64,000 nucleotides of DNA from contig NZ_FRCS01000003.1 of NCBI RefSeq assembly GCF_900143005.1, forward strand, positions 496,001-560,000, read 5' to 3'. Of this stretch, positions 5,809 through 34,765 are shown piece by piece (position 1 is the first letter of the stretch; each line of letters begins with the position of its first letter). The notes beneath the pieces are model-generated. The model was given only the letters and a program-made list of their open reading frames with translations, was not told the origin of the DNA and ran no database searches. Made by a program: the position numbers and the translations under genes. Source of the stretch: Cryptosporangium aurantiacum. GTDB lineage: Bacteria > Actinomycetota > Actinomycetes > Mycobacteriales > Cryptosporangiaceae.

Positions 5809-5825
5809 GTGTCACAGCTGTCAGA
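5809..5825. promoter_or_regulatory. Weak GTCAGA-type site upstream of the importer operon
   Basis: GTGTCACAGCTGTCAGA shares the GTCAGA half of the site family repeated up to 34.8 kb, but its left half is poor. It lies about 147 bp upstream of the fused permease start. The 289-bp gap 5663-5951 holds nothing else I can support as coding. Confidence 0.4.
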
Positions 5826-5939
5826 TAGTGCAGCAGATGTTAGGTCAGTCACCCCCACCCGTGTAAAGAGCGATCCCTGAATTGCCGCTAGAGCAGGCCG
5901 TTTTAGGCCGCGTTGATCACCAACGCACAGGAATGGCAG

Positions 5940-5956
5940 GTAACACCGATGTCAGA
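5940..5956. promoter_or_regulatory. Weak GTCAGA-type site at the 3' end of tetR
   Basis: GTAACACCGATGTCAGA matches the right half fully and the left half partly. It overlaps the last codons of the TetR gene, about 280 bp from the importer start, so a role is uncertain. Confidence 0.25.
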
Positions 5957-6530
5957 GAAGTCGGCGTAGGGACCGTTCGAGGAGCGCGTCGGTGAGCTCG
6001 GCCGCATCGTCACCGGCAGCCCGCAGGGCCGGGTGGGTGGTGTCCGACTCGGCCATCCCCCGCGCCACGAGCCAGCCCGTGAACAGCAGGAAGGTCGCGG
6101 CGAACACCTCGACGGCATCCTGCGGCGCGAACCCGGCGCGCCGCAGGATGCCCACGGCCGTCTCGGTCAGCCGTTGCGCGGCCGACGACGTTCCGCCGGT
6201 CGCCGAGAGCGCCCGCGCTCCGACGCCGGGGTAGCGGCGGAAAGTCCGGTCCATGCGCAGCACGAGCGTGACGTACTGGTCCCGCCAGTCGGTGCCCGCG
6301 TCGAGTTCGACGTCGATCTGTGTGGCGACCGCCTCGACGACACGATCGAGCAGGTCTTCCCGCCCGCGGAGGTAGTAGTGCACAGCGGGGGACGTGACGC
6401 CCAGTTCCGCGGCGACCGCGCGGATCGTCAGCGCATCGAGCGACGAGCGGGCGGTGATCTGCAGGGCCGCGCCCACCACGTCCCGCACCGACAGCGGCGA
6501 CGCCTGGGTACCGCCGCGCGGACGACTCAT
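5952..6530 (-). CDS. TetR-family transcriptional regulator
   Basis: A 192-aa protein with an N-terminal TetR helix-turn-helix at about residues 30-65 (LTIRAVAAELGVTSPAVHYY is the recognisable core) and a divergent ligand-binding C-terminal half. It is transcribed away from the FAD monooxygenase at 6649. The gap contains two direct copies of TGGTTAATGAG, likely its own operator, so it probably represses itself and the divergent gene (inference). That motif is unlike the GTCAGA sites of the rest of the left half, so this is probably a local regulator. Confidence 0.9.
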   Translation of the reverse strand: MSRPRGGTQASPLSVRDVVGAALQITARSSLDALTIRAVAAELGVTSPAVHYYLRGREDLLDRVVEAVATQIDVELDAGTDWRDQYVTLVLRMDRTFRRYPGVGARALSATGGTSSAAQRLTETAVGILRRAGFAPQDAVEVFAATFLLFTGWLVARGMAESDTTHPALRAAGDDAAELTDALLERSLRRLL

Positions 6531-6599
6531 CGCCCGGTCTCCCCTCTGGCTCCCGACGCGGTTGCGAATCCTGCTGCGCCGGCCGAACCCATTGTGCCA

Positions 6600-6633
6600 T
6601 GGTTAATGAGCCCATTTACTGGTGGTTAATGAG
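6600..6633. promoter_or_regulatory. Direct repeat TGGTTAATGAG, candidate TetR operator
   Basis: TGGTTAATGAG occurs at 6600-6610 and again at 6623-6633, a 23-bp step (about two helical turns). It lies between divergent tetR (start 6530) and the FAD monooxygenase gene (start 6649). This AT-rich patch stands out in the GC-rich surroundings. Confidence 0.6.
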
Positions 6634-6648
6634 AGAGGCGGCTCGGGT

Positions 6649-7897: not shown

Positions 7898-8221
7898 ATG
7901 GATACCTGGGTCACGACGTACTTCGACGCCTGGACCAGCGGCGACCCGCACGCCGTCGTCGCCTGTTTCGATCCGGAGGTCGAATTCGAGGACATGCCCA
8001 CCGGACACCGGGCCCACGGGCTCGACGAGGCTCGCGCGTTCGTCGAGCGCGCTTACGAGAAGGCCCCCGGCGCCCGATACGTCGCGGTGCACAGCCTGAC
8101 GCACCAGGACGAGTACGTGATCGAGTGGGTCATGGAGCCGATGGGACTGCGCGGCGCCTCGGTCGGCACGCTCCGCGCCGGGCGGATCCTCACCAACCGC
8201 GACTACTGGAGCGCCCCCTAG
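7898..8221 (+). CDS. SnoaL-like (NTF2-fold) small protein
   Basis: A 107-aa protein beginning MDTWVTTYFDAWTSGDP, the first helix of the SnoaL-like/NTF2 fold, with CFDPEVEFEDMPTGH as the following strand region. Start ATG 7898 has GAGGAAGG upstream and lies 13 bp after the monooxygenase stop, so the two form an operon. Such proteins may be isomerases, hydrolases or accessory ligand binders; no specific reaction can be assigned. Confidence 0.85.
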   Translation: MDTWVTTYFDAWTSGDPHAVVACFDPEVEFEDMPTGHRAHGLDEARAFVERAYEKAPGARYVAVHSLTHQDEYVIEWVMEPMGLRGASVGTLRAGRILTNRDYWSAP

Positions 8222-8238
8222 GTGTCGTATGCGTCAGA
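8222..8238. promoter_or_regulatory. GTCAGA-type site (partial left half)
   Basis: GTGTCGTATGCGTCAGA. The right half is perfect and the left half diverges. It sits just after the SnoaL-like gene and 145 bp upstream of the short-chain dehydrogenase at 8383. Confidence 0.4.
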
Positions 8239-8288
8239 TTCTACGATCGACTTAGCGACGTAAACCCGCCGTAGTAGCGAAGGACTTG

Positions 8289-8305
8289 GTAACGCTACTG
8301 TCAGA
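8289..8305. promoter_or_regulatory. GTCAGA-type site upstream of the 8383 dehydrogenase
   Basis: GTAACGCTACTGTCAGA. The right half is perfect and the left half partial. It lies 78 bp upstream of the dehydrogenase start at 8383, in the same gap as the site at 8222. Confidence 0.45.
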
Positions 8306-8382
8306 GTTGATCGTTGACACGGTTTCGCTGGCGATGACACGCTGCCCTCCGGACACGACTCCGACACGATGAGGTGGCGCGT

Positions 8383-9183
8383 ATGAGCGGAACCATGGCG
8401 GGCAAGATCGCGCTGGTCTCCGGTTCGACCCGGGGGATCGGCCGGTCGATCGCCGAGCAGCTGGCGGCCGAGGGCGCCGCGGTGATGGTGACCGGGCGGA
8501 CGGTGGCCAAGGGCGAGAAGGTGGTCGCGCGAATCCGGGAAGCCGGCGGCACGGCGGAGTTCGCCGCGCTCGACGTCACCGACGAGGACAGCGTCCGGGA
8601 CGTGATCGCCGAGACGGTCGGCCGGTTCGGCGGCCTCACCACGCTGATCAACAACGCCGCACCGACCGAGGTCGTCGCGAGCACGATCAAGCCGCTGGCG
8701 GAGTACAGCACCGAGGAGTGGAACCGGATCCTCACCGGCACGCTGACCGGGAACGTGTTCTGGGCGTCCAAGTACGCGTGGCCGCACCTGGCATCGGCGT
8801 CCGGCGCGTCGATCGTCAACATCTCGTCCGGTCAGGCGATCGCTGGCTTCAAGGGTTTCGGCCCGTACGGCGCGGCGAAGGCCGGCGTCGGCGCGCTCAC
8901 CCGCACGCTGGCGGTGGAGGGCGCGGCCTCCGGCATCCGGGCGAACACCGTGCTGGTCGGTCGTGTGGTCGCCGGGCGCGGTGACTCCGGGCACCACACC
9001 GGCGGCGGCCGGCTGACGCGGATCGGCAACCCGATGGACATCGCCTACGCCGTGGCGTACCTGGCATCCGACCAGGCAGCGTTCGTCACCGGCTCGACGC
9101 TCACCGCCGACGGCGGCTTCTCGATCAACGGCGATGCGGTCGACGACACGGAGAAGGCCTCAGCCGGCGCTGCCACCGGCTGA
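8383..9183 (+). CDS. Short-chain dehydrogenase/reductase (SDR)
   Basis: A 266-aa classical SDR. It has the nucleotide-binding SGSTRGIGRSIA near residue 13, NNAAPTE, the catalytic Ser in NISSGQA, and the catalytic pair in YGAAK, ending with an ADGGFSING substrate loop. ATG 8383 is chosen because GAGGTGG lies five bases upstream; an in-frame GTG nine bases earlier is less likely. It probably oxidises or reduces a hydroxyl/keto group of a pathway intermediate. It converges with another SDR gene, with a hairpin at their junction. Confidence 0.9.
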   Translation: MSGTMAGKIALVSGSTRGIGRSIAEQLAAEGAAVMVTGRTVAKGEKVVARIREAGGTAEFAALDVTDEDSVRDVIAETVGRFGGLTTLINNAAPTEVVASTIKPLAEYSTEEWNRILTGTLTGNVFWASKYAWPHLASASGASIVNISSGQAIAGFKGFGPYGAAKAGVGALTRTLAVEGAASGIRANTVLVGRVVAGRGDSGHHTGGGRLTRIGNPMDIAYAVAYLASDQAAFVTGSTLTADGGFSINGDAVDDTEKASAGAATG

Positions 9184-9185
9184 GG
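9158..9185. terminator. Hairpin overlapping the end of the SDR gene
   Basis: Arms CCTCAGCCGG (9158-9167) and CCGGCTGAGG (9176-9185) form a perfect 10-bp stem with an 8-base loop. It is inside the last codons of the plus-strand SDR and next to the stop of the convergent SDR, so it may terminate both. Confidence 0.65.
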
Positions 9186-9193
9186 TCGTCCTC

Positions 9194-9967
9194 CTATTTC
9201 GGGGTGAAACGCAGAGCACCGTCCAGGCGGATGATCTCGCCGTTGAGGTAGTCGTTGATCACGATGCTGTGGACGAGCTCCGCGTACTCCGACGGGCTGC
9301 CCATCCGCTTCGGGAACGGCACACCGCTCCCCCAACGCTGCTCGGCCTCCTCGCGCTCCATCCGGAACGCCGGCGTGAAGAACGTCCCCGGGGCGATCGC
9401 GACCACCCGGATGCCGAGCGGGCTCAGGTCACGGGCCGCCGGCAGCGTCAGCCCGACCACCCCACCCTTCGCCGCGGAGTACGCGGTCTGTCCGATCTGG
9501 CCCTCGTAGGCGGCGATGCTCGCCGTGTTCACGACGACACCGCGCGCGCCGCCGTCGTCCGGGTCGTTCTTCGCCATCGCGGCCGCCGCCAGCCGCAGCG
9601 TGTTGTACGTGCCGGTCAGGAACAGGTTGAGGTACCAGGTGAACGAATCGAGCGGAGTCGGCGAGCCGTCGCGCCCCACGACGCGGGAGGCGCCGCCGCT
9701 CGATCCGCCGTGCGCGTTGACGAGGACCCGCAGCGGGCCGGCCTCGTTCGCGGCCGCGATTGCCGCCAGCACGCTCTCCTCGTCCAGCACGTCGGTGCTC
9801 AGGTACCGCGCGGCCGGGCCGAGCTCGTCGGCGAGCGCCTTGCCGCGGTCGTCGGCCAGGTCCGCGATCACCACGGTCGCTCCTGCCGCGACGAGCCGGC
9901 GGACGGTGGCCTCTCCGAGGCCACCCGCTCCCCCGGTGACGATCGCCGATGCTCCGTTGACGTCCAT
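9194..9967 (-). CDS. Short-chain dehydrogenase, 3-hydroxyacyl-CoA dehydrogenase-like
   Basis: A 257-aa SDR with GGAGGLGEATVRRL nucleotide-binding loop, VNAHGGS, Ser in NTASIAAYEG, and catalytic YSAAK. The N-terminus (NGASAIVTGGAGGLG) and the GALRFTPK end resemble type-II 3-hydroxyacyl-CoA dehydrogenases (HSD10-like), which fits a beta-oxidation setting, but this is inference from similarity. Start ATG 9967 has GAAGGA six bases upstream. It is divergent from the hydrolase at 10069, with two GTCAGA-type sites between them. Confidence 0.87.
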   Translation of the reverse strand: MDVNGASAIVTGGAGGLGEATVRRLVAAGATVVIADLADDRGKALADELGPAARYLSTDVLDEESVLAAIAAANEAGPLRVLVNAHGGSSGGASRVVGRDGSPTPLDSFTWYLNLFLTGTYNTLRLAAAAMAKNDPDDGGARGVVVNTASIAAYEGQIGQTAYSAAKGGVVGLTLPAARDLSPLGIRVVAIAPGTFFTPAFRMEREEAEQRWGSGVPFPKRMGSPSEYAELVHSIVINDYLNGEIIRLDGALRFTPK

Positions 9968-9986
9968 CCACACTCCTTCGGGTCAG

Positions 9987-10003
9987 ATGTATACAGCGTC
10001 AGA
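9987..10003. promoter_or_regulatory. GTCAGA-type site between divergent genes
   Basis: ATGTATACAGCGTCAGA; the right half is perfect. A further GTCAGA starts at 9982. It lies 20-36 bp upstream of the SDR start at 9967, in a shared divergent promoter region. Confidence 0.5.
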
Positions 10004-10040
10004 TTACCTCTGCGATGAATGCTTATAAGCAGCTTATGGT

Positions 10041-10057
10041 CAGAACACATCGTCAGA
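10041..10057. promoter_or_regulatory. GTCAGA-type site upstream of alpha/beta hydrolase
   Basis: CAGAACACATCGTCAGA fits GNNNAC-N5-GTCAGA except for the first base. It ends 11 bp before the hydrolase start at 10069, which would block initiation if occupied (inference). Confidence 0.55.
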
Positions 10058-10068
10058 TTGGAGCCTCG

Positions 10069-10815
10069 ATGAGACCGACGGCACTCGTCCTCGTCCATGG
10101 AGCGCAACACGCCGGGGACTGCTGGGAACCGACCGTCGAGGAGATCCAGCGCCACTCGCCGGACACACCGGTCCTCGCGGTCGACCTCCCTGGACGCCGG
10201 GGCACTCCCGCCGATCTGGCCACCGTCGACCTGGCCGACTGGATGGACAGCGTCGTCGAGCAGATCGACGCCGCCGGGCTGGACGAGGTGGTCGTGGTCG
10301 GGCACTCGATGGCCGGCATCACGGTGCCCGGCGCGGTCGCGCGGCTCGGTGCGCAGCGGGTCCGCCGGATGATCCTGCTCGGCGCCTCGGTGCCACCCGA
10401 GGGTCGTTCGATCCTCGACACGCTGACCGGCCCGCTGCATTGGTACGCGGCCCGTGCGGCCCGGCGAGGCGTCCCGGCCCCGCCGATGCCCATGTTGCTT
10501 GCCCGGCGGTCGTTCTGCAACGGCATGACGCCCGAGCAGCGGCGGTTCGTCCTCGATCGGCTCTACGGAGACTCCAGCCGCATCCCGGCGCAGAAGGTGT
10601 CCCGGGCCGACCTGCCCCGGGAGATCCCGCGCACTTGGATCCTGACGCTGCGCGATCGGGCCCAGACCCCGGCCGCGCAGCGCAAATCGATCGAGGCTCT
10701 AGGCGGGGTCGACGAGGTGGTCGAACTCGACACCGGCCACGACGCGATGGTCAGCGCCCCGGCGGAGTTAGCCGCGCTGCTGGTCGACCGGTGCCGGGAC
10801 GCGGTCAGCCGCTGA
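10069..10815 (+). CDS. Alpha/beta-hydrolase
   Basis: A 248-aa alpha/beta hydrolase of the small esterase/hydroxynitrile-lyase-like group. Features are the oxyanion segment VLVHGAQHAGDCW at about residues 6-18, the nucleophile elbow VGHSMAG near residue 85, and the catalytic His in DTGHDAM near the C-terminus. ATG 10069 is chosen because the fold begins there and TTGGAGC precedes it; an earlier in-frame ATG at 10015 would place the operator inside the gene. Its last 48 bp overlap the end of the convergent acyl-CoA ligase gene. The substrate is unknown, plausibly an ester or lactone intermediate. Confidence 0.87.
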   Translation: MRPTALVLVHGAQHAGDCWEPTVEEIQRHSPDTPVLAVDLPGRRGTPADLATVDLADWMDSVVEQIDAAGLDEVVVVGHSMAGITVPGAVARLGAQRVRRMILLGASVPPEGRSILDTLTGPLHWYAARAARRGVPAPPMPMLLARRSFCNGMTPEQRRFVLDRLYGDSSRIPAQKVSRADLPREIPRTWILTLRDRAQTPAAQRKSIEALGGVDEVVELDTGHDAMVSAPAELAALLVDRCRDAVSR

Positions 10816-12282
10816 GCGGACGCGCAGGGCGGCCCGGTCGAGCTTGAGCATCGCGGTGACCGGCAGGTCGTCGACGAGCACGAGCTCGTCCGGGGCCTTG
10901 TAGTCGGCCAGCCGGTCACGGGTCCACGTCCGTAGCTCGGCCAGCGTCGGTGGCGCGGCCGGGTCGGCGGGGACCACGTAGGCGACGCCGATCTCGCCGA
11001 TCACCGGTGTCGGCCGCCCCACCACCGCGGCACGACGGACGCCGGGGTGCTCGGCGAGCGTGTTCTCCACCTCGACCGGGTGGACGTTGTACCCACCGCG
11101 GATGTACAGGTCACCGGCCCGGCCCACCAGGATGAGGTTGCCCTCGACGTCGAACCGCCCGAGGTCGCCGCTGAGCAGCCATCCGTCGTCGGTGAGTGCG
11201 GCGGCGGTCCGTTCCGGGTCGCGCCAGTAGCCGCGCATCACGCAGCCACCGCGGACCCGGATCCGGCCGACCTCGCCCGGCGGGACGGGGCGCCCATCGG
11301 GATCCGTCACCGCCACCTCCATGCCGAGTTGTGGTCGCCCGACCGTGCGGAACTGCACCTCCGGTGGATCGGACGGCTCGGTGCCGCAGATCGTCGGCGA
11401 CTCCGTCATCGCATAGCGCACGACCAGCGGGACGCCGAGGCGTGCGGCCACCGCCTCGACCAGGTCGGGCGGCGCGGGAGCGGTGGCGGCGATCCCGACC
11501 CGCAGGTCGGGTAGGCGCGTGGCGTCCGGCTCGTCCAGGAGCTTCGCCCACTGCGTCGGCACGCCACCGACCACCGTGATCCGTTCTTCCCGCATGATGC
11601 GCGCCATCCCGGCCGCCGACCAAGGCACCGGGGAGATGACCAGCGTGATGCCCCAGACGAGTTGATCGGCCAGCTTGGCCATGTACCCGGCATGGGCGAA
11701 CGGGGTGGCCACCAGCCGGCGGTCGCCGGGCGCGCTCATCACGCCGGAGGACCCGGCGGAGGCCAACAGATTGCGGACGTCGAACCACGCGCCCTTGGGC
11801 GTGCCGGTCGTCCCGCTGGTCCAGATGATGACGACCGGCGCCGACGGATCCGGCGGGGTGCGCCTACTGCCCGGTGCCGGGCGCGAGTACAGGTCCGCCA
11901 GCTCGTTCCGGGTGAGGACCGGCATACCGATCCGCGGCAGCGGCGGCCCGTTCACCGGGTCGTGAACGATCAGCGCGGGCCGCGCCCGGTCGAGGATCGC
12001 GGTCACCTCGCGCGGTCCGAGCCGCGCGTTGAGGCCGGTCGCGACGGCGCCGAGTCGGGCGACAGCGGCGTAGCAGATCGCGTAGTCGATACCGGACGGC
12101 AGCATCAACGCCACGACGTCGCCGGTCGAAATGCCGCCGGCGACCAACGCGGCCGCCAAGGCATCGGACCGGGTGTCCCACTCGGCGAACGTGAGCCGCT
12201 CCCCGCCCGGCTCGACGTAGGCCTCCCGGTCTCCGTGCCGGCCGGCCGCCGCACGCAGCAGGTCGTCGATCGAGGCCGTCAT
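10768..12282 (-). CDS. AMP-forming acyl-CoA ligase (FadD-like)
   Basis: A 504-aa ANL-superfamily enzyme that activates a carboxylate via acyl-AMP to its CoA thioester. The P-loop is IIWTSGTTGTPKG, the adenine-binding region YAMTESP, the hinge region LLSGDLGRFD followed by GRAGDLYIRGGYNVHPVEVE, and the catalytic Lys probably in AMLKLDR near the end. ATG 12282 overlaps the stop of the thiolase-like gene (ATGA); the frame is open far upstream, but that part has no family similarity. It is the last gene of the meta-cleavage/acyl-CoA dehydrogenase operon. Two further ligases are at 28122 and 56598. Confidence 0.92.
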   Translation of the reverse strand: MTASIDDLLRAAAGRHGDREAYVEPGGERLTFAEWDTRSDALAAALVAGGISTGDVVALMLPSGIDYAICYAAVARLGAVATGLNARLGPREVTAILDRARPALIVHDPVNGPPLPRIGMPVLTRNELADLYSRPAPGSRRTPPDPSAPVVIIWTSGTTGTPKGAWFDVRNLLASAGSSGVMSAPGDRRLVATPFAHAGYMAKLADQLVWGITLVISPVPWSAAGMARIMREERITVVGGVPTQWAKLLDEPDATRLPDLRVGIAATAPAPPDLVEAVAARLGVPLVVRYAMTESPTICGTEPSDPPEVQFRTVGRPQLGMEVAVTDPDGRPVPPGEVGRIRVRGGCVMRGYWRDPERTAAALTDDGWLLSGDLGRFDVEGNLILVGRAGDLYIRGGYNVHPVEVENTLAEHPGVRRAAVVGRPTPVIGEIGVAYVVPADPAAPPTLAELRTWTRDRLADYKAPDELVLVDDLPVTAMLKLDRAALRVRSAADRVPAPVDQQRG

Positions 12283-13439
12283 GGTGCCTCGGCGCCGAGG
12301 ATCAACGTCCCGCTGGAACAGAACCAGCCCCCGGTGCCGCTGACGCACGCCAGCTTCGCGTCCGGGACCTGCCGCGGACCGGCCTCGCCGCGCAACTGCC
12401 GCACGGCCTCGACCACCAGGAACAGACCGCGCTGCCCGGGGTGGCACGCCGAGAGCCCGCCGCCGTCGGTGTTGGTCGGCAGCGCACCGCCCAGTCGGAG
12501 CCGACCGTCGGCGACGAACGGACCGCCCTCGCCCTTCTTGCAGAACCCCAGATCCTCCAGCGTCATCAGCAGCATGTACGTGAACGCGTCGTAGATCTCG
12601 CAGACGTCGATGTCCTCCGGACGCACACCAGCGCGCTCGAACGCCAGCCGACCGGAGACCGCGGCGGGTCCGGACGTCAGGTCGCCCCACTGGCTCGTGG
12701 ACACGTGCGAGACGCTCTCCCCGGTGCCGAGCACGTGGACCGGCCGACCCGGCAGGTCGCGGGCGCGCTCGGCGGAGACCAGCACCGCGGCGGCGCCGCC
12801 GTCGGAGCGCAGGCAGCAGTGCAGCTTCGTGAACGGGTCGGCGATCATCCGCCCGGACAGCACCTCGTCCACCGTGATCGGGTCGCGGTAGGCGGCCTCC
12901 AGGTTGTCCTTCGCGTTCGCCCGCGCCGACACCGCGACCTCGGCGAGCTGCTCGATCGTGGTGCCGAACTCGTGCATATGACGCCGGGCGGCCATCGCGT
13001 ACTTCGCGATCAGCGTGTGCCCGTACGGGGCTTCCCACTGCAGCGGCCCGCGCGAGCCCCAGTTGAGGTTCGCGGTCCGCAGTCCGCGACGCAGGTCGGA
13101 CTTCGCAGTGGAGCCGTACGTGACCAGGACGACGTCCGCGTGGCCGGCGGTGATCGCGTCCGCCGCGTGGGCGATCATCACCTCCCAGGAGGCGCCGCCG
13201 ACCGCGGTCGAGTCGATCCATCGGGGCCGCAGGCCCAGATACTCCCCCACCTCGATCGGCGCCAGCGTCCCGAGCGAGGTGGACGCAAGCCCGTCCACCT
13301 CGGCGGGGCTGAGGCCGGCGTCGGCCAGTGCCCGCAGTGAGGCCTGCGCGACCAGACCGTACGGGTTCGTGGCGACCTTCATCGGATCGGCGAGCGCGAC
13401 GCCCGCGATGACCGCGCTCCCAGCGCTCCCAGTCCTCAC
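12279..13439 (-). CDS. Thiolase-fold lipid-transfer protein (Ltp2-like), no nucleophilic Cys
   Basis: A 386-aa SCP-x-type thiolase-fold protein. The position of the usual nucleophilic Cys reads VGGASWE (no Cys), and the usual HDCFT reads EIYDAFTY, with Tyr in place of His. Loss of Cys with Tyr at this site is what is seen in Ltp2-type retro-aldolases of steroid side-chain breakdown, so aldol cleavage rather than thiolysis is likely (inference). GTG 13439 overlaps the preceding acyl-CoA dehydrogenase stop. Unlike most such proteins, it has no DUF35 partner next to it. Confidence 0.85.
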   Translation of the reverse strand: MRTGSAGSAVIAGVALADPMKVATNPYGLVAQASLRALADAGLSPAEVDGLASTSLGTLAPIEVGEYLGLRPRWIDSTAVGGASWEVMIAHAADAITAGHADVVLVTYGSTAKSDLRRGLRTANLNWGSRGPLQWEAPYGHTLIAKYAMAARRHMHEFGTTIEQLAEVAVSARANAKDNLEAAYRDPITVDEVLSGRMIADPFTKLHCCLRSDGGAAAVLVSAERARDLPGRPVHVLGTGESVSHVSTSQWGDLTSGPAAVSGRLAFERAGVRPEDIDVCEIYDAFTYMLLMTLEDLGFCKKGEGGPFVADGRLRLGGALPTNTDGGGLSACHPGQRGLFLVVEAVRQLRGEAGPRQVPDAKLACVSGTGGWFCSSGTLILGAEAP

Positions 13440-14461
13440 TGCGCGGCCGCCTCGGCCAGCAGGGGCGTGAGATGGTCGGTCCGGGATCCGAAGAGCTGGT
13501 CGAGGACGTGCGCGCGTTTCAAGTAGAGGTGCGCGTCGTGTTCGTAGGTGTAGCCCATCCCACCGTGGATCTGGATGCACTCGGCGGCGTTGTCGATCGC
13601 CGCGCGTCCGGCGACCACCTTCGCGGCGAGCACCTGGAACGTGGCGTCGGCCCGGCCGGTGGCGAGGCAGACCGCGGCGAACAGCGTCTGCTGCAGTGCG
13701 GCGTCGGCATAAACCGCCATGTCCGCGCAGCGGTGCTTCACCGCCTGGTGGACGCCGATCGGCCGACCGAACTGCACCCGCGTCTTGGCATGCTCGGTGG
13801 ACAGATCCCGGGTGGCCTCGGCGATGCCGACGAGTTGCGCGGCGGTGAGCACCGCGCCCCGCAGCCGGATCGGGTCGTCGCTCGCGGCGACCCAGCAGGT
13901 CACCGGCGTGTCGTCGGCGGTCGCGTCGGCCAGCCGTGAGCCGGGATCGATGGACTCCAGCGGACGCAGATCGGTGAGCGCGGCCGTCTCGACCAGCCCG
14001 GCACCGTCCGCACCGACGACGAGGACGTAGCCGGTGCCGCCGGGGTCGACCACGCGGACCCGGCCGGAGAGGCGCTCGGGGGTCAGCCGGGCGGCGTCCA
14101 GCAGGCCGGCGGCCACCGTGCAGCGCCCCTCGACGATGCCCGTGGCCAGTTCGTGGTCGCCGGTCGACGCCGCGAGGCGGGCCCCCAGCACGGTGGTGAC
14201 GAACGGCCCGGGAACGAGCGCGCGCCCCACCTCGCGGAACAGCAGCGCCTCGTCGGGGAGGTCGCGGCCAGCGCCACCGACGGCCTCCGGCGCGGACAAC
14301 CCGAGCAGGCCGAGTTCGGCGCCCGCGGCCCAGAGCTTGGCCGCGATCGCGGTCGGCTCGTCGCGCCGTTCCCGGATCGTGCTGATCGGAATCTGCTCGG
14401 CGAAGAATTCGGCGGCGGCGCTCGTCAGTTCGAGCTGCTCGGCGGAGGGCAGTAGATCCAC
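13436..14461 (-). CDS. Acyl-CoA dehydrogenase, smaller subunit of a heteromeric pair
   Basis: A 341-aa FadE28-like protein, the length of the small partner in alpha2beta2 steroid acyl-CoA dehydrogenases. The C-terminal domain has RVQFGRPIGVHQAVKH and IHGGMGYTYEHDAHLYLKRA, and the middle domain is short and degenerate. GTG 14461 has GAAGGAC upstream. The partner (389 aa) lies 27 bp upstream. The expected complex introduces an alpha-beta double bond into a CoA ester using FAD. Confidence 0.9.
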   Translation of the reverse strand: MDLLPSAEQLELTSAAAEFFAEQIPISTIRERRDEPTAIAAKLWAAGAELGLLGLSAPEAVGGAGRDLPDEALLFREVGRALVPGPFVTTVLGARLAASTGDHELATGIVEGRCTVAAGLLDAARLTPERLSGRVRVVDPGGTGYVLVVGADGAGLVETAALTDLRPLESIDPGSRLADATADDTPVTCWVAASDDPIRLRGAVLTAAQLVGIAEATRDLSTEHAKTRVQFGRPIGVHQAVKHRCADMAVYADAALQQTLFAAVCLATGRADATFQVLAAKVVAGRAAIDNAAECIQIHGGMGYTYEHDAHLYLKRAHVLDQLFGSRTDHLTPLLAEAAAQ

Positions 14462-14488
14462 GGGATGTCCTTCCGAAACGGTCGAGGG

Positions 14489-20559: not shown

Positions 20560-20561
20560 CA

Positions 20562-25586: not shown

Positions 25587-25594
25587 CAGCGCGC

Positions 25595-25629: not shown

Positions 25630-25635
25630 CGTTAT

Positions 25636-25652: not shown

Positions 25653-25666
25653 GACTCGCAGGCCGC

Positions 25667-25719: not shown

Positions 25720-25744
25720 GTTCGCGTCAACGCACGCGCTCGGC

Positions 25745-26611: not shown

Positions 26612-26642
26612 TTCAGTCCTTCTTCCGTTGTGGCGAGGCTAC

Positions 26643-28112: not shown

Positions 28113-28121
28113 GGGAGCACC

Positions 28122-29654
28122 TCACTGTGCGGGCTGGAAATGATCGAAGCGTCGGGCGAGGGCCGCCTTGGCGACCTTGCCCATGGCGTTGCGGGGCACC
28201 TCGTCGACGACCTCGAGCTGCACCGGTAACTTGCGCAGGTTGAGACCCTGCGAGCGCAGGTAGGCGCACACGGCCTCCAGCGTCGGCAGCGGTCCGCCCG
28301 GCTCACCGACGACCACCGCGCAGACGCGCTCGCCGGTCCGCGGGTCGGGCAGTCCGATCACGGTCCAGTCCGCCAGCCCGGGACACCCGGCGAGCAGGTC
28401 TTCGACCTCGCGCGCCGAGATGTTCTCCATGTTGCGGATGATCACGTCCTTGAGCCGGCCGGTGATCGTGAGGTTGCCTGCGGCGTCGAGAAACGCCAGG
28501 TCGCCGGTCTTGAACCAGCCCTCGGCGTCGAACGCGTCGGCGTCCAGGGCGGGGTCGACGTAGCCGACGGTGAGCTGGGGGCCTTTCAGCCGCAGCTCAC
28601 CGGCCTCCCCGGTCGGGGCACGTGTGCCGTCGTCGCGCACGATCAACGCCGCGCAGTCCGGGCCGGGCGGTCCCTCGGTGGTCGCCATCGTCGCGTCGTC
28701 GGCGAGCGGTGAGGCCCAGGCGAAGAACGGGCACTCGGTCAGACCGAAGCCGGACGCGATGCCGGTGCCGCCGAGTTCACCGCGGACCTGCTGGTGCAGG
28801 TCGCGCGGGCGGGGAGCGCCGCCGATCAGGAAACACTTCAGCCGGGGGAACAGCGGCACGTCCGGCCGTGTGCGCTGCTCGGCCAGGAACGCGCGCACGA
28901 ACGGGGTGCCGTTGCCTCCGTAGGTGACGCCCTCCTCGGCGAGCAGCCGGGCGGTCGCGGCGGGTTCGAAGACGTCGGTGATGATCAGACCGGCCCCGGA
29001 CATCAGCGCCGCGACGACGTGGAGGACGCCGCCGACGTGTGCGAGCGGCGCGAGCGCGGCGATCCGGTCGTCCGGCTCCGGCGCGATCCGTTGGCAGAAG
29101 ACACGTGCGGCGGCGATCAACCCGGCGTCGGTGTGCCGGGCGCCCTTCGGCGCGGACGTGGTGCCGGAGGTGTAGAACGCCCACCGGTTCACCGGCCCGG
29201 ACGCTTCGGCCGGCAGCAGTTCCGGGTCGCCGGACGGCAGCGCGCCGTCGGTGACCAACACGTCGAGCCCGGGGACGCGCGCGGCGACGTTCCGGGCCAT
29301 CACCGCGTGGTCGTGGCCCCGGAACGCCGGCGGCACGATCAGCAGGTCGGCGCCCACCTGCCGGCAGATGAACTCCACCTCCGGCTCGCGCAGCATCATG
29401 ATCAGCGGGTTCTGGACGGCGCCCAGCCGGGACAGCGCGAACGTGAGCACGATCGTCTCGATCCAGCTCGGCAGCTGCCAGGACACGACCGTGCCCGCTC
29501 CGACGCCACGCCCGACCAATCCCGCGGCGGTTCGCTCGACCGCGTCCCGGAACTGGCCGAACGTCATCCGCCGACGGCGCTCGTCGACGACGAGCAGCGC
29601 GTCCGGTGTCGCTTCGGCGCGAGCGGCGACCAGGTCGTAGAGTAGGTCGGTCAC
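28122..29654 (-). CDS. AMP-forming acyl-CoA ligase (FadD-like)
   Basis: A 510-aa ANL enzyme. Its P-loop-like segment reads FYTSGTTSAPKGARH, with GLTECPF, then WFKTGDLAFLDAAGN, GRLKDVIIRNMENISAREVE, and the catalytic Lys in RNAMGKVAKAAL. GTG 29654 overlaps the stop of the KstD-like gene. It most resembles the ligase at 56598 in its first motifs (both have a PKGAQH/PKGARH-type end), suggesting related acids. It makes the CoA ester of a substrate or intermediate in the core pathway. Confidence 0.92.
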   Translation of the reverse strand: MTDLLYDLVAARAEATPDALLVVDERRRRMTFGQFRDAVERTAAGLVGRGVGAGTVVSWQLPSWIETIVLTFALSRLGAVQNPLIMMLREPEVEFICRQVGADLLIVPPAFRGHDHAVMARNVAARVPGLDVLVTDGALPSGDPELLPAEASGPVNRWAFYTSGTTSAPKGARHTDAGLIAAARVFCQRIAPEPDDRIAALAPLAHVGGVLHVVAALMSGAGLIITDVFEPAATARLLAEEGVTYGGNGTPFVRAFLAEQRTRPDVPLFPRLKCFLIGGAPRPRDLHQQVRGELGGTGIASGFGLTECPFFAWASPLADDATMATTEGPPGPDCAALIVRDDGTRAPTGEAGELRLKGPQLTVGYVDPALDADAFDAEGWFKTGDLAFLDAAGNLTITGRLKDVIIRNMENISAREVEDLLAGCPGLADWTVIGLPDPRTGERVCAVVVGEPGGPLPTLEAVCAYLRSQGLNLRKLPVQLEVVDEVPRNAMGKVAKAALARRFDHFQPAQ

Positions 29655-31270
29655 GCGGGACGCCCGGCCAGGTGGCGTCCCGCGATGTACCCGTAGACCA
29701 TCGCCGGGCCGAGCGTCCCGCCCGCACCGCCATAGGTCATCCCGAACGGGGAGGCCATCACGTTGCCGGCCGCGTAGAAGCCCTCGATCGGCACCCCGTC
29801 GAGGTCGAGCACTCGGGCCTCAGCGTCGGTCTGCGGACCGCCCTTGGTGCCCAGCGCGCCGCTGACCAGCGGAACCGCGTAGAACGGCGGTTCGTCGAGC
29901 GGGCCAAGCGTCGCCTCGGGCTTGCCCTTGAGGTACGGATCGCCCCACCAGCGGTCGTGCGCGCTCTCGCCCCGGCGGAAGTCCGGGTCGTGTCCGGCCG
30001 CGGCGTGCCCGTTCCAGCGGGTCACCGTGCGCTCGAACTCGTCGGCGGGCACACCGAGGCGGTCGGCCAGCTCTCCGAGCGAGGCCCCGGTGATCAGCCA
30101 CGGCGGCGGTTCCTCATTCGGCGGGTAGGGGCCGACGGTTCCGTACCGGCGCAGGTACTCCTGGTCGAACACCAGCCAGCACGGCAGGTTCGCGTAGTCG
30201 AACGTCGTGACGTCCTCGGCGTGGAACGCACCGCCGAACGCGTTGTAGTTGGCAGCCTCGTTCGTGAAGCGCCGCCCGCTGCGGTTGACGATGATCGAAC
30301 GCGGGCGGGTGCGGTCCGCGTTGACCATGACGCGGTTCATCGGATTGACCCCGTCGGGCAGTACCGCGACCGGGCTCCACCAGGCCTCGCGCATGTTGCC
30401 CAGGGAGACGCCGACCTTCATCGCCATCCGCAGGCCGTCGCCCTCGGACGTCGGCATCGTGACCGGGTGGGTCAGCGGACCCCGCAGGAACGCCTTCTTG
30501 TACTCCTCGTTCCACTCGAAGCCACCGGTGGCGAGTACCACCCCGCGGGAGGCGTCGACCTCGGCGGATCCGTCGAAGCGCACACCACTCACCCGGCCGT
30601 CGCGGACCACCAGCTCGGTGGCGCGGTGGTCGGTGCGCACCACCACCCCGCTGTCCAGGCATGCCTTGAGCAGGCGGCCCACCAGGGACTGGCCGCGTCC
30701 GCGTTCGTCCCGGATCCGCCGCCGCGCGAGTTCCTCGGCCGACGGCGGCTGGGGCACCGCCGCTCCGATCGGCGTCTCCCGCTGGACGAGGTGCAGTTCG
30801 GCGAAGTACGGGCCGGGCGTCACCCGGTGGTGCCAGGCGCCGAGCTCGTCGAACGGGAACAGCGGCGTCTCGAGCGTGCGGCCGCCCTCGGGCTTCCCGC
30901 CCGGATGCTCGGGGTGGTAGTCCGGGAAGCCCTCGGCGACGTAGAACTCGGTACCGGCCCTGGCGTCCAGGAATTCGACCATCTCCGGGCCGGCCTGCAG
31001 GTAGGCCCGGACCAGCGGCTCGGAGAGCAGGCCGCGGGAGAGCGACATGAGGTACGTGAACGCCTCGTCGTCGCTGTCGTGGACGCCGACCCCGGCCATC
31101 AGCGGGTTGTTCGGTATCCAGACGTTGCCCCCCGACCACGCGGTGGTGCCGCCGACCTCCGCGGCCTTCTCGAACACGCCGACCGACAGGCCGGACGCGG
31201 CCGCGGTGAACGCCGCCGTGAGCCCCGCGGCTCCACTGCCGAGCACGACCACATCAAACTTCTCCGCCAT
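29651..31270 (-). CDS. FAD-dependent dehydrogenase, 3-ketosteroid delta1-dehydrogenase-like
   Basis: A 539-aa flavoprotein of the KstD/flavocytochrome c fumarate-reductase superfamily. FAD fingerprint FDVVVLGSGAAGLTAAF is at residue 5, GGTTAWSGGNVWIP near 40, and MTYGGAGGTLGPAMVYGYIAG near the C-terminus matches the KstD end region. Such enzymes desaturate cyclic ketones next to the carbonyl. In a pathway with a phenol hydroxylase and ring-cleaving dioxygenase it could aromatise an alicyclic ketone (inference). ATG 31270 has GAAGGTG upstream; a GTG three codons earlier is less likely. Confidence 0.88.
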   Translation of the reverse strand: MAEKFDVVVLGSGAAGLTAAFTAAASGLSVGVFEKAAEVGGTTAWSGGNVWIPNNPLMAGVGVHDSDDEAFTYLMSLSRGLLSEPLVRAYLQAGPEMVEFLDARAGTEFYVAEGFPDYHPEHPGGKPEGGRTLETPLFPFDELGAWHHRVTPGPYFAELHLVQRETPIGAAVPQPPSAEELARRRIRDERGRGQSLVGRLLKACLDSGVVVRTDHRATELVVRDGRVSGVRFDGSAEVDASRGVVLATGGFEWNEEYKKAFLRGPLTHPVTMPTSEGDGLRMAMKVGVSLGNMREAWWSPVAVLPDGVNPMNRVMVNADRTRPRSIIVNRSGRRFTNEAANYNAFGGAFHAEDVTTFDYANLPCWLVFDQEYLRRYGTVGPYPPNEEPPPWLITGASLGELADRLGVPADEFERTVTRWNGHAAAGHDPDFRRGESAHDRWWGDPYLKGKPEATLGPLDEPPFYAVPLVSGALGTKGGPQTDAEARVLDLDGVPIEGFYAAGNVMASPFGMTYGGAGGTLGPAMVYGYIAGRHLAGRPA

Positions 31271-31324
31271 GACGAACACCTTCGGACGCGAGTGCGGACG
31301 GCTGGGAGGGACTACGGAAGGGGT

Positions 31325-32185
31325 TCAGGCCGACGCGACCGCGGCCATACCGGTGATCCACTCCGGCACGGGCTGGTACACCAGCTGCCGCAGCGATCGG
31401 CCACCACCGGCGGCGCCCGCGGCCAGCCAGGTGCGTACCTCGTTCGCACCGGCGCCGGCGTCCTGGTGCGCGTGGTCGGTCAGCTCCGTCAGGCGGTCGG
31501 TGTCCCAGGACGCCATCGCGGTCAGGAACGCCCGGTCCCAGTCGGGCCGGATCTTGGTGCGCGCGGCCTCCGAGCCCTCGGCGATGAGCCTGGCGCGCTC
31601 GTCGTCGTCCAGTTCGTAGGCGTCGACCTCCAGGCTCGGTGGCGAGTGGGACAGGCCACCGGTGCCGATGACGAGCACCCGCGCGCCCACGTCGTCGAGG
31701 AAGTTGGCGACCGCCCGGCCGAGCGCCAGGACACGGCCTGCTCGGGGAAGCGGCGCCGTCGCGCAGTTGACGGCCACCGGGATGACCGGCCGCGCGTCCA
31801 CCGCGCCGAGCAGATCGCGCAGCGGCTGCGCGAACGCGTGGTCGAGGTCGACGTCGCGGCAGACGGCGATGTCGATGCCGGCGGTGAGCAGATGCTCGGT
31901 CAGGTTCCGGGCGGTGCCGTACGGAACGTCGAGGGCTGCGGGGCCGTGGTTGCCCTCGGCGATGATCCCGGCCGAGAGGGAGACGGCGAACGACGGGACC
32001 ACGGTGCGGAACGCGCGGCGGTGGTCGCCGCCGAAGAGGACCACCAGCTCGGGGTCGAACTCGGTCACCAGGTCGCGGGCGCGGGCCAGGCCGGCGCGGA
32101 ACTCGGTGCCTTCGACCCGCTCGGTGTCGCGCTCCATTCCTGGGCTGTGGCTAGCACACACCACTAGTCGCCGCTGCTCGGCCAT
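31325..32185 (-). CDS. MhpB-like class III extradiol ring-cleavage dioxygenase
   Basis: A 286-aa LigB-superfamily protein closest in pattern to MhpB (2,3-dihydroxyphenylpropionate 1,2-dioxygenase). It has CASHSPGM at the N-terminus, ELVVLFGGDHRRAF, the catalytic His in DLDHAFAQPL, and GTGGLSHSPP with the second conserved His. The end QPVPEWITGMA matches MhpB well. It opens a catechol ring next to the diol using Fe(II). ATG 32185 follows GAGGAGG. Two GTCAGA-type sites lie just upstream, so the operon has an internal promoter here. Confidence 0.93.
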   Translation of the reverse strand: MAEQRRLVVCASHSPGMERDTERVEGTEFRAGLARARDLVTEFDPELVVLFGGDHRRAFRTVVPSFAVSLSAGIIAEGNHGPAALDVPYGTARNLTEHLLTAGIDIAVCRDVDLDHAFAQPLRDLLGAVDARPVIPVAVNCATAPLPRAGRVLALGRAVANFLDDVGARVLVIGTGGLSHSPPSLEVDAYELDDDERARLIAEGSEAARTKIRPDWDRAFLTAMASWDTDRLTELTDHAHQDAGAGANEVRTWLAAGAAGGGRSLRQLVYQPVPEWITGMAAVASA

Positions 32186-32211
32186 CGTGTCCTCCTCGAC
32201 CCGCACATCTG

Positions 32212-32228
32212 CCACGCAGCGCGTCAGA
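32212..32228. promoter_or_regulatory. GTCAGA-type site upstream of mhpB-like gene
   Basis: CCACGCAGCGCGTCAGA; the right half is perfect and the left half is imperfect. It lies 27-43 bp upstream of the dioxygenase start at 32185. Confidence 0.55.
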
Positions 32229-32264
32229 ACAGTCACTACTCTGCGGTTTCTCGGCCGGTAATTA

Positions 32265-32281
32265 GTAGACACACTGTCAGA
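32265..32281. promoter_or_regulatory. Perfect GTAGAC-N5-GTCAGA site upstream of mhpB-like gene
   Basis: GTAGACACACTGTCAGA, one of three exact matches in the window. It lies in the 96-bp gap between the isochorismatase-like stop and the dioxygenase start. Confidence 0.7.
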
Positions 32282-32932
32282 TCAATCGGAGAATTGGCAA
32301 GACTTCCGATCCCAGATCGCCAGGATCGTCTCCACCGAAACGACCGGCCCCAACAGGCGCATCGCGTAGCGGAGTACGTCCTGACCGAACTCGTACGGCA
32401 GGCCCATGACCGCGTCGGACGGGATCACCACGCGGTAGCCCAGGTTGGCCGCCTCGATCGCCATCCCGATCACCGCCTCGTTGAGCGAGACGCCGCCGAG
32501 CACGAGCGTCTCCACGCCCATCGCCCGGAGAAGAGCGTCGAGCTCGGTGCCGGTGAACGCGGACAGCCCGTGGTACCGGGCGGCGACCAGATCACGCGGT
32601 TCCGGCGCCAGTTCGGGGATCACCTCGGTGTCCGGCGTCCCGGCGACGAGGTACTCGGGGTCGGCGGTCATGACGGCCATCAACGGGGTGTTGACGGTCA
32701 GGCCGAGGCGGTCGCGCCGGTACTGGAGCGTCGCGTGCACCACCGCGACGTCGGCGGCCCGCGCCCCGGCCACCAGCCGGGCGAGCGCGCTGATCGTGCC
32801 GTGTTCGACGAGCGCGTCGCGCATCGCCGCCATCGGTGGCCGGGCCAGGTCACCGACGATCCCCCGCTGCATCTCCGAGATCACCACGGCGACCCGGGCC
32901 GGGTCGCCGAGCAAGGACAGATCGATGGGCAT
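32282..32932 (-). CDS. Isochorismatase-fold protein lacking the canonical triad
   Basis: A 216-aa isochorismatase/cysteine-hydrolase-fold protein. Canonical members use Asp, Lys and Cys. Here the first site reads ISEMQRG (Glu for Asp), the Lys region reads RYHGLSAF, and the site of the Cys reads GGVSLNEAV (Ala for Cys). A second gene at 62814 shows the same changes, so they look like a real subfamily rather than decay. ATG 32932 has TAGGAGG upstream. It lies between the Baeyer-Villiger enzyme and the dioxygenase. Its reaction is unknown and may not be amide hydrolysis. Confidence 0.82.
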   Translation of the reverse strand: MPIDLSLLGDPARVAVVISEMQRGIVGDLARPPMAAMRDALVEHGTISALARLVAGARAADVAVVHATLQYRRDRLGLTVNTPLMAVMTADPEYLVAGTPDTEVIPELAPEPRDLVAARYHGLSAFTGTELDALLRAMGVETLVLGGVSLNEAVIGMAIEAANLGYRVVIPSDAVMGLPYEFGQDVLRYAMRLLGPVVSVETILAIWDRKSCQFSD

Positions 32933-32944
32933 CGCAGCGGCCTC

Positions 32945-34546
32945 CTAGGACGTGGTGAAACCCTCGTAGTCGGTTGCCGCGACGGCATCGCACCGCTTGC
33001 GGTACCGGCTCACGCCGCCGATGTAGGGCATGAACATCCGAGGCTTGCCGGGGACGTTGGCGCCGAGGTACCAGGAGTCGGCCTTGACGTAGAGCGTCCG
33101 GTCGGCGACCTCGTTGACGTGATCCACCCAGGCGGCCTCGGCCTCGGGCTCGGCCTCGATCGTCGCCAGACCCTGATCGCGCATCATGACCAGGCAGTCG
33201 CCGATCCAGTCGACGTGCTGCTCGATCGAGAGGAAGGCATTGCTGATCACCGACGGGCTCCCCGGTCCGGCGATCAGGAACAGGTTGGGAAACCCCGCGA
33301 CGGCGAGGCCCAGATAGGTCGTCGGTCCGCCGCTCCACTTCTCCTGGATCGTCCGGGCGTCCCGACCGCGGATGTCCATGCGCAGCACCGCCCCGGTCAT
33401 CGCGTCGAAGCCGGTGGCGAACACGATGCTGTCCACCGCGTACTCCTGGCCGCCGACGCGGAGACCGCCGGGCGTGAGGCGCTCGATCGGCGTCGCGCGG
33501 AGGTCGACGAGCGTCACGTTGTTCCGGTTAAACGTCGCGTAATAGCCGCTGTCGACACAGATCCGCTTCGTTCCGATCGGGTGGTCGCGCGGTGTCAGCA
33601 GGTCGGCCGTCGCCGGGTCGGTCACGATGTCGCGGATCTTCTGCCGGACGAACTCCGCGGCGTGCTCGTTCGCGGCCGGGTCGAAGATCAGGTCGTCGAA
33701 CGCGGCCATGAAGGAGAAGCCACCGGTCCCCCACCGGGATGCGAACTCCGCCGCCCGCTCCACCTCCGAAACCGCCAGAGCGGACACCCGGTTCTGACGC
33801 AGGAGGACACCTCCGAACGACCGGCGGGCACGCTCCCGGAACTCGGCGTAGTGCGCCTGACGTTCGCGCATCTCGTCCCTCGGAAGGGGCTCGTTCGACC
33901 CGGCGACGCTGAAGTTGGCGGTGCGCTGGAAGACCGTGAGGTGGTCGGCCTGCTCCGCGATGAGCGGGACCGCCTGGATGCCGGACGCGCCGGTGCCGAT
34001 CACTGCCACCCGCTGCCCGGCGAAGTCCACGCCCTCCTGCGGCCACCGCGCCGTGTGATAGGTCGCTCCGGCGAAGGACTCGCGTCCGGCGATCTCGGGG
34101 ATCTGGGCCGCCGAGAGGCATCCGGTGGCCAGCACGCAGAAGCGCGTCTGGATCTGGTGGCCGGCGTCGGTCCGGATCGCCCAGTGGTCGGTGTCGAACT
34201 CCGCCGAGGTCACGCGGGTTCCGAACGTGATCGCCTCGCGCAGCGCGAACCGGTCGGCCACGTGCTGGGCGTAGCGCAGCATCTCCGGTTGCTCCGGATA
34301 GCGGCGGCTCCACACCCACTCCTGCTGGAGCGCGGGAGAGAACGAGTAGGAGTACTCAAGGCTCTCGATGTCGCACCGCGCGCCGGGGTAGCGATTCCAA
34401 TACCACGTACCGCCGACGTCGCCTCCGGCCTCGAACGCCCGCACCGAGAAACCCAGTTCCCGCAAGCGGTGCACCGCGTACAGACCGGCGAACCCGGCGC
34501 CGACGACCACCACGTCGACGTGCTCGAACCCGACGTCAGAAGCCAC
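32945..34546 (-). CDS. Baeyer-Villiger-type FAD monooxygenase
   Basis: A 533-aa class B flavoprotein monooxygenase. The first FAD fingerprint VVVGAGFAGLYAVHRL is at residue 14, the Baeyer-Villiger signature FAGATYHTARWP near 160, and the NADPH fingerprint GTGASGIQAVPLI near 180. It inserts an oxygen next to a ketone, giving an ester or lactone. GTG 34546 is chosen because GGAGG precedes it and the fold starts soon after; upstream frame residues look unrelated. It heads the operon running to 25745 and is divergent from the APC permease, with three GTCAGA-type sites between. Confidence 0.9.
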   Translation of the reverse strand: MASDVGFEHVDVVVVGAGFAGLYAVHRLRELGFSVRAFEAGGDVGGTWYWNRYPGARCDIESLEYSYSFSPALQQEWVWSRRYPEQPEMLRYAQHVADRFALREAITFGTRVTSAEFDTDHWAIRTDAGHQIQTRFCVLATGCLSAAQIPEIAGRESFAGATYHTARWPQEGVDFAGQRVAVIGTGASGIQAVPLIAEQADHLTVFQRTANFSVAGSNEPLPRDEMRERQAHYAEFRERARRSFGGVLLRQNRVSALAVSEVERAAEFASRWGTGGFSFMAAFDDLIFDPAANEHAAEFVRQKIRDIVTDPATADLLTPRDHPIGTKRICVDSGYYATFNRNNVTLVDLRATPIERLTPGGLRVGGQEYAVDSIVFATGFDAMTGAVLRMDIRGRDARTIQEKWSGGPTTYLGLAVAGFPNLFLIAGPGSPSVISNAFLSIEQHVDWIGDCLVMMRDQGLATIEAEPEAEAAWVDHVNEVADRTLYVKADSWYLGANVPGKPRMFMPYIGGVSRYRKRCDAVAATDYEGFTTS

Positions 34547-34588
34547 ACTGCCTCCACTCGCAGAATTACCTGCGCACTCTAAGCAGAA

Positions 34589-34605
34589 TCTGACGCAGCG
34601 TCTAC
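34589..34605. promoter_or_regulatory. Perfect GTCAGA-type site (reverse orientation)
   Basis: TCTGACGCAGCGTCTAC, an exact reverse-strand copy of GTAGAC-N5-GTCAGA. It lies 43-59 bp upstream of the Baeyer-Villiger monooxygenase start. The 296-bp gap 34547-34842 holds this and two further copies and no gene. Confidence 0.7.
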
Positions 34606-34639
34606 GATTGCCTGCGCGGGAGCCCTCCCGGGGCCACAC

Positions 34640-34656
34640 GAAGACGTCAGGTCAGA
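34640..34656. promoter_or_regulatory. GTCAGA-type site
   Basis: GAAGACGTCAGGTCAGA fits GNNNAC-N5-GTCAGA. It is the middle of three copies in the gap between the divergent monooxygenase and permease genes. Confidence 0.6.
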
Positions 34657-34748
34657 ATATGGCGGTGGGTCGGCCATGGGTGGGCGCTTCAGCGCGGCTA
34701 TCCCCAGGCAATACCTCAAATCCCATGAGCCTCACCTCTTGCCAATCA

Positions 34749-34765
34749 GTAGACGTGATGTCAGA
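34749..34765. promoter_or_regulatory. Perfect GTAGAC-N5-GTCAGA site
   Basis: GTAGACGTGATGTCAGA, an exact copy 78 bp upstream of the APC permease start at 34843. It is the last copy of this family found; none of this quality appears in the intergenic regions to the right. Confidence 0.7.

Follow-up and report, generated by a model that had tools for sequence, protein, structure and literature searches.

Background

KstR and KstR2 are TetR-family repressors of large actinobacterial catabolic regulons, and their operators are palindromic. Here we analyse a stretch of 64,000 nucleotides of Cryptosporangium aurantiacum (positions 496,001 to 560,000 of contig NZ_FRCS01000003.1; the whole stretch is called the window below), in which a 17-bp element ending in GTCAGA recurs ahead of many genes. 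In our view this element very likely serves as operator for a double-TetR repressor whose gene lies outside the window and which would repress a catabolic island. Unlike this candidate, KstR and KstR2 are single-domain proteins, and the NCBIfam KstR model gave the candidate 26 bits against a cut-off of 280.

PMC11667970 describes Mce3R (Rv1963c) of Mycobacterium tuberculosis as a double TetR-family regulator (TFR) that acts on a non-palindromic operator, one helix-turn-helix (HTH) from each TetR unit contacting the DNA. It places two 25-bp sites, with 53 bp between them, ahead of yrbE3A, mentions three further sites in the regulon and counts 204 putative double TFRs in Actinomycetes (PMC11667970). 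Among the literature matches listed for tandem or double TetR, Mce3R was the sole natural double TFR that we recognised, and those listed for GTCAGA with TetR held nothing relevant. One listed study (PMC1797012) reportedly concerns an engineered single-chain TetR.

The predicted system resembles Mce3R in having two fused TetR units per chain, an asymmetric operator, promoters with more than one site, a site at the regulator's own gene and catabolic targets. It differs in its 17-bp core and in the 33 intergenic copies of the core island (delimited below) that have AC five bases ahead of GTCAGA (the N5 arrangement). Neighbouring sites often start 51-59 bp apart, which is a likeness only, since the 53 bp of Mce3R is the gap between sites. 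As Mce3R is the one double TFR with a studied operator among the matches listed, the present system would be a second, distantly related one with dozens of predicted sites.

Results and discussion

Sites in the window

Coordinates are those of the window unless preceded by C3, the contig (0.76 Mb, 7.9% of a genome of 9.58 Mb on 44 contigs), on which the window occupies C3:496001-560000. Genes were called with a codon-usage script, no annotation being used, and gene starts are approximate. In what follows binding, repression, the assignment of units to half-sites, the ligand and the sharing of sites by three paralogues are all inferred from sequence. The sixteen sites are:

5809-5825, plus strand: weak operator-like copy GTGTCACAGCTGTCAGA in the gap ahead of the ABC-transporter gene
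5940-5956, plus strand: operator-like copy GTAACACCGATGTCAGA, AC spacing 6 bp, 12 of its 17 bases gene-free
8222-8238, plus strand: weak copy, GTCAGA half alone clear, no AC nearby
8289-8305, plus strand: operator-like copy, AC spacing 6 bp, ahead of the SDR (short-chain dehydrogenase/reductase) gene 8383-9183
9987-10003, plus strand: operator-like copy with a degenerate left half, in the divergent gap 9968-10068
10041-10057, plus strand: predicted operator, 5-bp spacing
18156-18172, minus strand: predicted operator ATAGAC-N5-GTCAGA, ahead of the predicted operon 10768-18130
18200-18216, minus strand: predicted operator GCATAC-N5-GTCAGA, 44 bp away from the 18156 copy
22942-22958, minus strand: predicted operator in the GTGAC-N6-GTCAGA register
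22998-23014, minus strand: predicted operator GTCAAC-N5-GTCAGA
24372-24388, plus strand: predicted operator GTGTAC-N5-GTCAGA, ahead of the amidohydrolase gene 24417-25586
32212-32228, plus strand: weak copy ahead of the extradiol dioxygenase gene
32265-32281, plus strand: exact GTAGAC-N5-GTCAGA
34589-34605, minus strand: exact GTAGAC-N5-GTCAGA, ahead of the FAD monooxygenase gene 32945-34546
34640-34656, plus strand: predicted operator GAAGAC-N5-GTCAGA
34749-34765, plus strand: exact GTAGAC-N5-GTCAGA, ahead of the permease gene 34843-36498

These positions had been picked out by eye in an initial annotation, and all sixteen proved correct, each 17-mer ending in GTCAGA on the strand given. Its statements that almost all copies are gene-free, that three match GTAGAC-N5-GTCAGA exactly and that nearly every promoter of the left half has a site were likewise borne out: fifteen of the sixteen lie wholly outside called genes (5940 being the partial case), the three exact copies are those at 32265, 34589 and 34749, and GTCAGA occurs in eight of the nine promoter gaps of at least 60 bp between positions 1 and 36500. 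The consensus then proposed, GNNNAC-N5-GTCAGA, stands for the GTCAGA half (16/16) and is too strict as a full pattern, which fits 7 of the 16. AC is found at 5-bp spacing in nine sites and elsewhere at 6 bp (5940, 8289 and 22942), 4 bp (5809), 3 bp (9987) or 7 bp (32212). The element is thus not one clean motif; it occurs in two registers, GTRKAC-N5 and GTGAC-N6, in both of which the outer GT starts 11 bases ahead of GTCAGA.

Neighbouring N5 or N6 sites less than 200 bp apart start 44-109 bp from one another (six of the 13 pairs at 51-59 bp) and share a strand in 12 of the 13 pairs, a spacing and orientation that would suit co-operative binding. Relative to a single downstream gene, seven sites have the same orientation and seven the opposite one, which is neutral for an operator.

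Distribution in the genome

In the window 23 of the 35 GTCAGA hexamers are wholly intergenic, with intergenic DNA making up 5% by our own gene calls (binomial p 1e-21). Matches to the 17-mer with at most two mismatches number 11 against 3.6 expected, a count that none of 100 shuffles reached; three of them (25636, 26425 and 31847) lie away from promoters. The right half of the window (36500-64000) has GTCAGA in two of six promoter gaps of at least 60 bp, and both gaps hold a copy of a palindromic class described below.

All seven exact copies of GTAGAC-N5-GTCAGA in the genome are on C3, between 327 and 531 kb, and the looser RNNNAC-N5-GTCAGA occurs 60 times genome-wide, 32 of them on C3 (reversed control: 17 genome-wide). 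The genome-wide scan therefore did not find sites of this form equally common elsewhere, the outcome that the initial annotation had named as telling against its own proposal. Over the 360 kb that surround the window, intergenic DNA makes up 14% of the sequence and is touched by 78 of the 135 GTCAGA hexamers. N5 sites continue leftward beyond the window and are concentrated in a core island (C3:312-329 and 450-536 kb), where they account for 33 of 52 intergenic GTCAGA, against 3 of 26 in the remainder of the 360 kb. When the spacing between AC and GTCAGA was scanned from 0 to 13 over the same 360 kb, N5 was found 40 times (34 intergenic), N6 21 times and each other spacing 2 to 16 times; a good share of the N6 count is contributed by palindromic sites and by sites in the GTGAC register.

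A double TetR as the likely regulator

Three paralogous proteins of 430-455 amino acids, with two TetR_N domains each, are encoded at C3:325109-326452, 457526-458893 and 485675-486967, the nearest of them 9 kb left of the window, and each of the three genes has sites at the gene. The gene C3:485675-486967 probably starts further out, with an in-frame ATG near 487018 that the predicted operator ATGTCAGAC (C3:487011-487027) overlaps; at the 325109 paralogue a predicted operator (C3:326445-326461) likewise overlaps the start codon, and the third paralogue has sites ahead of the gene. As a consequence of this overlap, the operator also writes the first residues (MSE or MSD) of two regulator proteins. 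A fourth double TetR (C3:321750-322967, locus L022:5750-6964) is distantly similar to the other three.

What the sequence shows directly is the sites themselves, the way they cluster on a single contig, the genes of the double TetRs and the conserved co-location of both in other genera (next section). The suggestion in the initial annotation of a TetR-type regulator that may be encoded outside the window is supported by the double TetRs, the relatives' loci, a matrix trained on foreign sites and syntenic operators. Its picture of the operator of one TetR-type regulator needs refining: the likely regulator is a double TetR present as three paralogues, there are two registers, and a second, palindromic class lies at the right. 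With a tandem TetR as the likely regulator, an asymmetric operator is what would be expected.

Conservation in other genera

With the three double-TetR proteins as queries, a search of the GTDB collection yielded 106 confirmed stretches, of which the best 80 were kept (76 loci). We analysed the 41 that are full-length or nearly so (L039-L079), leaving out 35 short, distant matches (L080-L114); sites in these loci can be as far as 8 kb from the regulator gene. Because near copies and overlapping loci are among them, the 41 are not independent events. They come from Pseudonocardia, Frankia, Streptosporangiaceae, Modestobacter, Streptomyces and others. Although fetched by regulator protein sequence alone, 30 of the 41 contain [AG]NNNAC-N5-GTCAGA, against none for the reversed control, and a site is present in all 21 loci of L039-L058 and L067. 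A spacer scan of these 21 foreign loci gave 48 distinct sites at N5 and 34 at N6, whereas none of the remaining spacings between 0 and 13 had fewer than 1 or more than 14.

A first position weight matrix, made from C. aurantiacum sites, mixed two operator classes and was replaced by one trained on the 48 distinct foreign sites from the 21 loci, near-identical sites being kept if their context differed by one base. At scores above 14 the foreign-trained matrix finds 37 sites in the C. aurantiacum 360 kb (32 intergenic, 5 genic) against 2 in a 400 kb control from contigs C1, C2 and C4. Left and right halves are unlike in own and foreign sites alike, as in a non-palindromic operator; symmetry is confined to the inner part (GAC/GTC or AC/GT), and the inverted repeat of a classical TetR operator was not found.

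A gene neighbourhood, g174-g183, recurs in many of the relatives' loci. One MaoC-type hydratase and an aldehyde dehydrogenase in it were checked against Pfam; the other genes were named by inspection (flavin reductase, second hydratase, alcohol dehydrogenase, P450, enoyl-CoA hydratase, DUF35 and SDR). Between C. aurantiacum and five Pseudonocardia loci, three operators keep their position, at the regulator start, ahead of g174 and ahead of g178, with 17-mer identities of 81, 73 and 84%, respectively. The flanks are 23-30% identical for the g174 and g178 operators; for the one at the regulator start, which has coding sequence as its downstream flank, the values are 43 and 62%. In this comparison each promoter has largely preserved its own left half, GTGTAC or GTAGAC, whereas in two loci of Streptosporangiaceae type (L045 and L046) the corresponding promoter has GTGAC-N6-GTCAGA instead, and in L044 and L053 both forms are near it. 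With such syntenic footprints in another genus, a rule pairing two unlike HTHs with two unlike half-sites becomes testable. One list of loci used in this comparison omitted L042, L043, L068, L069, L072 and L079. In the Pseudonocardia locus L042 the matched range 8001-9365 contains a stop codon, so that the gene must have another start or frame than the tblastn match implies.

Within the family of C. aurantiacum (five genomes) the double TetR, in three copies, and the exact motif occur only in this genome, an agreement that counts as one event. Loci of the P450 gene had a site in 0 of 21 cases, but their 1.5-kb flanks exclude promoters, and the count is uninformative.

Fold and proposed mechanism

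Sequence searches align no more than one TetR unit with Mce3R (E-values 6.5e-8 with phmmer and 1.3e-11 with a profile), and full-length orthology was therefore rejected. For structure prediction an alignment of 32 rows was used, made up of the three own proteins and 29 of the 41 relatives (L042, which has a stop in the range, its near copy L043, and L047, L050, L051, L068, L069, L072, L075, L076, L078 and L079 were left out). AlphaFold2 modelled the regulator with a predicted local distance difference test (pLDDT) score of 87.4 and a predicted template modelling (pTM) score of 0.86, and the best match of the model in the PDB (Foldseek) was DNA-bound Mce3R, 9b7y (426 columns, TM-scores 0.64/0.71, 16% identity). 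Judging from this model, the regulator probably works like Mce3R without being its orthologue.

In the proposed mechanism one chain with two different HTH units would fold on itself as a covalent pseudo-dimer. The near-invariant GTCAGA would be read by one unit and the less strict half, GTRKAC or GTGAC, by its partner, which would yield an asymmetric operator. In the 32-row alignment the N-unit is somewhat more conserved than the C-unit (mean pairwise identity 72% vs 63%), a weak hint that the N-unit reads GTCAGA; a comparison of the N- and C-terminal HTHs with the single-domain TetRs of the palindromic class, made to assign units to half-sites, gave 32-43% identity throughout. The repressor would sit at promoters, and across the start codons of two regulator genes, and so block ring hydroxylation, extradiol ring cleavage, ligation to coenzyme A (CoA), beta-oxidation-like steps and uptake. 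Release may come from a pathway intermediate, perhaps a CoA thioester, and the operators at the regulator genes would provide autoregulation.

A second, palindromic class of sites

A sister class of sites shares the GTCA half:

window 39993, 54382, 55777, 60358, 61641 and 61708, and C3:323449-370409: sister palindrome TTGAC-N6-GTCAA/G
55777-55790, no strand assigned: sister operator TGAC-N6-GTCA, ahead of the TetR gene 55873-56559
55873-56559, plus strand: single-domain TetR of the sister class, one of three paralogues

The 360 kb contain 25 copies of TGAC-N6-GTCA, of which 23 are intergenic (N5: 6; N7: 9). Twenty of the 23 intergenic copies fall within C3:323-370 and 536-561 kb, and most of these have the TTGAC or the GTCAA form; the remaining three are at C3:457395 and 518944, which belong to the GTGAC register of the double-TetR operator, and at 581695. 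Sister sites precede the genes of all three single-domain TetR paralogues (window 55873-56559, C3:333829 and C3:361706). In 19 foreign loci of relatives of TetR 55873-56559, TGAC-N6-GTCA was found 13 times in 12 loci and not in the other 7; the TTGAC/GTCAA form was found nine times (8 loci) at N6, and three times in total at the other spacings from 2 to 10. A 16-mer, TTGACAGTTTCGTCAA, present at C3:345522 and window 39993, is common to six loci of other genomes.

The asymmetric and the palindromic class lie largely in different stretches of one island. The sister TetRs are encoded on the same contig as the double TetRs and have the GTCA half in common with them; unlike these, they have one domain and a palindromic operator. 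We tentatively propose, as a scenario with somewhat less than even chances, that TetR fusion freed the operator from symmetry and that the GTCA half gave rise to two codes, palindromic TTGAC-N6-GTCAA for the triplicated single TetRs and asymmetric GTRKAC-N5-GTCAGA for the triplicated double TetRs, tiled over adjacent parts of the island and with a few sites that both could read. Both regulator types are triplicated on C3 (333829, 361706 and 551873; 325109, 457526 and 485675), and there are further apparent duplicates, for instance C3:366312 with 562444; the triplication and the duplicate genes suggest block duplication within the island.

Alternative explanations

Several results weigh against a double-TetR operator as proposed. 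The N5 arrangement is missing from 19 of the 52 intergenic GTCAGA of the core island, and 11 of the 41 relatives' loci have no N5 site, ten of these being below 50% identity. A class-wide scan with the stricter pattern RTRKACRTNNTGTCAGA found it in 8 of 296 genomes against 7 of 296 for the reversed control. The double TetR itself (E<=1e-60) is present in 10 of the 296, three of which also have the strict pattern (Fisher p 0.0014), but of the two of these other than C. aurantiacum one has the site 3.4 Mb from the gene and one on another contig. Finally, the superposition on Mce3R has a root-mean-square deviation of 10.4 A, too large for the relative placement of the two halves, or an intramolecular asymmetric omega fold of the Mce3R type, to be read from the model with confidence.

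The alternative that survives best is a variant in which there is no single regulon, the three double TetRs splitting the sites or sharing some with the sister single TetRs. The sites at 22942 and C3:457393 fit GTGAC-N6-GTCAGA and the palindrome TGAC-N6-GTCA alike, left halves vary from promoter to promoter, each promoter largely retaining its own across genera, and one sister-class site, C3:323449, falls inside the outlying group of N5 sites on the left (C3:314-327 kb). Nevertheless, the HTH units of two of the double TetRs are near-identical (N 94%, C 96%; the third is 64-74% identical to those two) and, except for that outlying group and the two sites that fit both patterns, each class keeps to its own stretches. 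We regard this variant as possible but rather unlikely.

An ordinary single-domain TetR binding as a homodimer, with the asymmetry due to drift, seems improbable. The obvious candidate, TetR 5952-6530 (minus strand), lies within the span of the sites and is adjoined by those at 5809 and 5940. It was rejected as the regulator: its own promoter gap (6531-6648) is the only site-free one of the nine, and a relative over more than 60% of its length occurs in one of the 41 loci against 41 of 41 for the double TetR, a comparison biased by the choice of loci through the double TetR. Moreover, the difference between left and right half persists in other genera.

Recognition of the element by an alternative sigma factor, as part of the promoter, would account for its fixed internal spacing and its location in promoter gaps, yet this reading is quite improbable given the lack of orientation bias noted above, the copies that overlap start codons and a distance to a TTGAC-like hexamer that is not constant over 90 sites. 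A consensus promoter scan of 22880-36500 gave 1 match against 0.6 expected, and a by-eye impression in Pseudonocardia of a -10 sequence within the spacer was dropped, no general relation to the sites being found. Chance or composition bias, with which the control-level result of the strict class-wide scan would agree, has next to no probability in view of the clustering within the genome and the performance of the foreign-trained matrix.

Functions behind the predicted operators

The genes behind the sites include the following:

2909-5662, minus strand: branched-chain-type ATP-binding cassette (ABC) transporter, a fusion of permease with ATPase; the weak copies in the gap 5663-5951 are all that places it in the predicted regulon
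10768-18130, minus strand: predicted operon of a CoA ligase, a thiolase-like protein, two acyl-CoA dehydrogenases, an HpcH/HpaI aldolase, an HpaH-type hydratase and an alpha/beta hydrolase
20621-22231, minus strand: MhpA-type 3-(3-hydroxyphenyl)propionate hydroxylase, above the NCBIfam cut-off
31325-32137, minus strand: LigB-type 3-carboxyethylcatechol 2,3-dioxygenase family protein, above the NCBIfam cut-off

The HpaH hydratase scores above its curated cut-off and the HpaI-like aldolase below. Genes for CoA ligases, acyl-CoA dehydrogenases and thiolase-like proteins also adjoin sites or sit in operons behind them, and a Rieske oxygenase and a P450 are encoded behind or near sites outside the window. 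From its gene content the island reads as one for the catabolism of an aryl- or alicyclic carboxylic acid, and the predicted sites would mark which genes of a large pathway for aromatic or alicyclic acids form its inducible unit. In the transporter gene at 2909-5662, a single frame of 917 amino acids joins branched-chain ABC permease domains with the ATPase.

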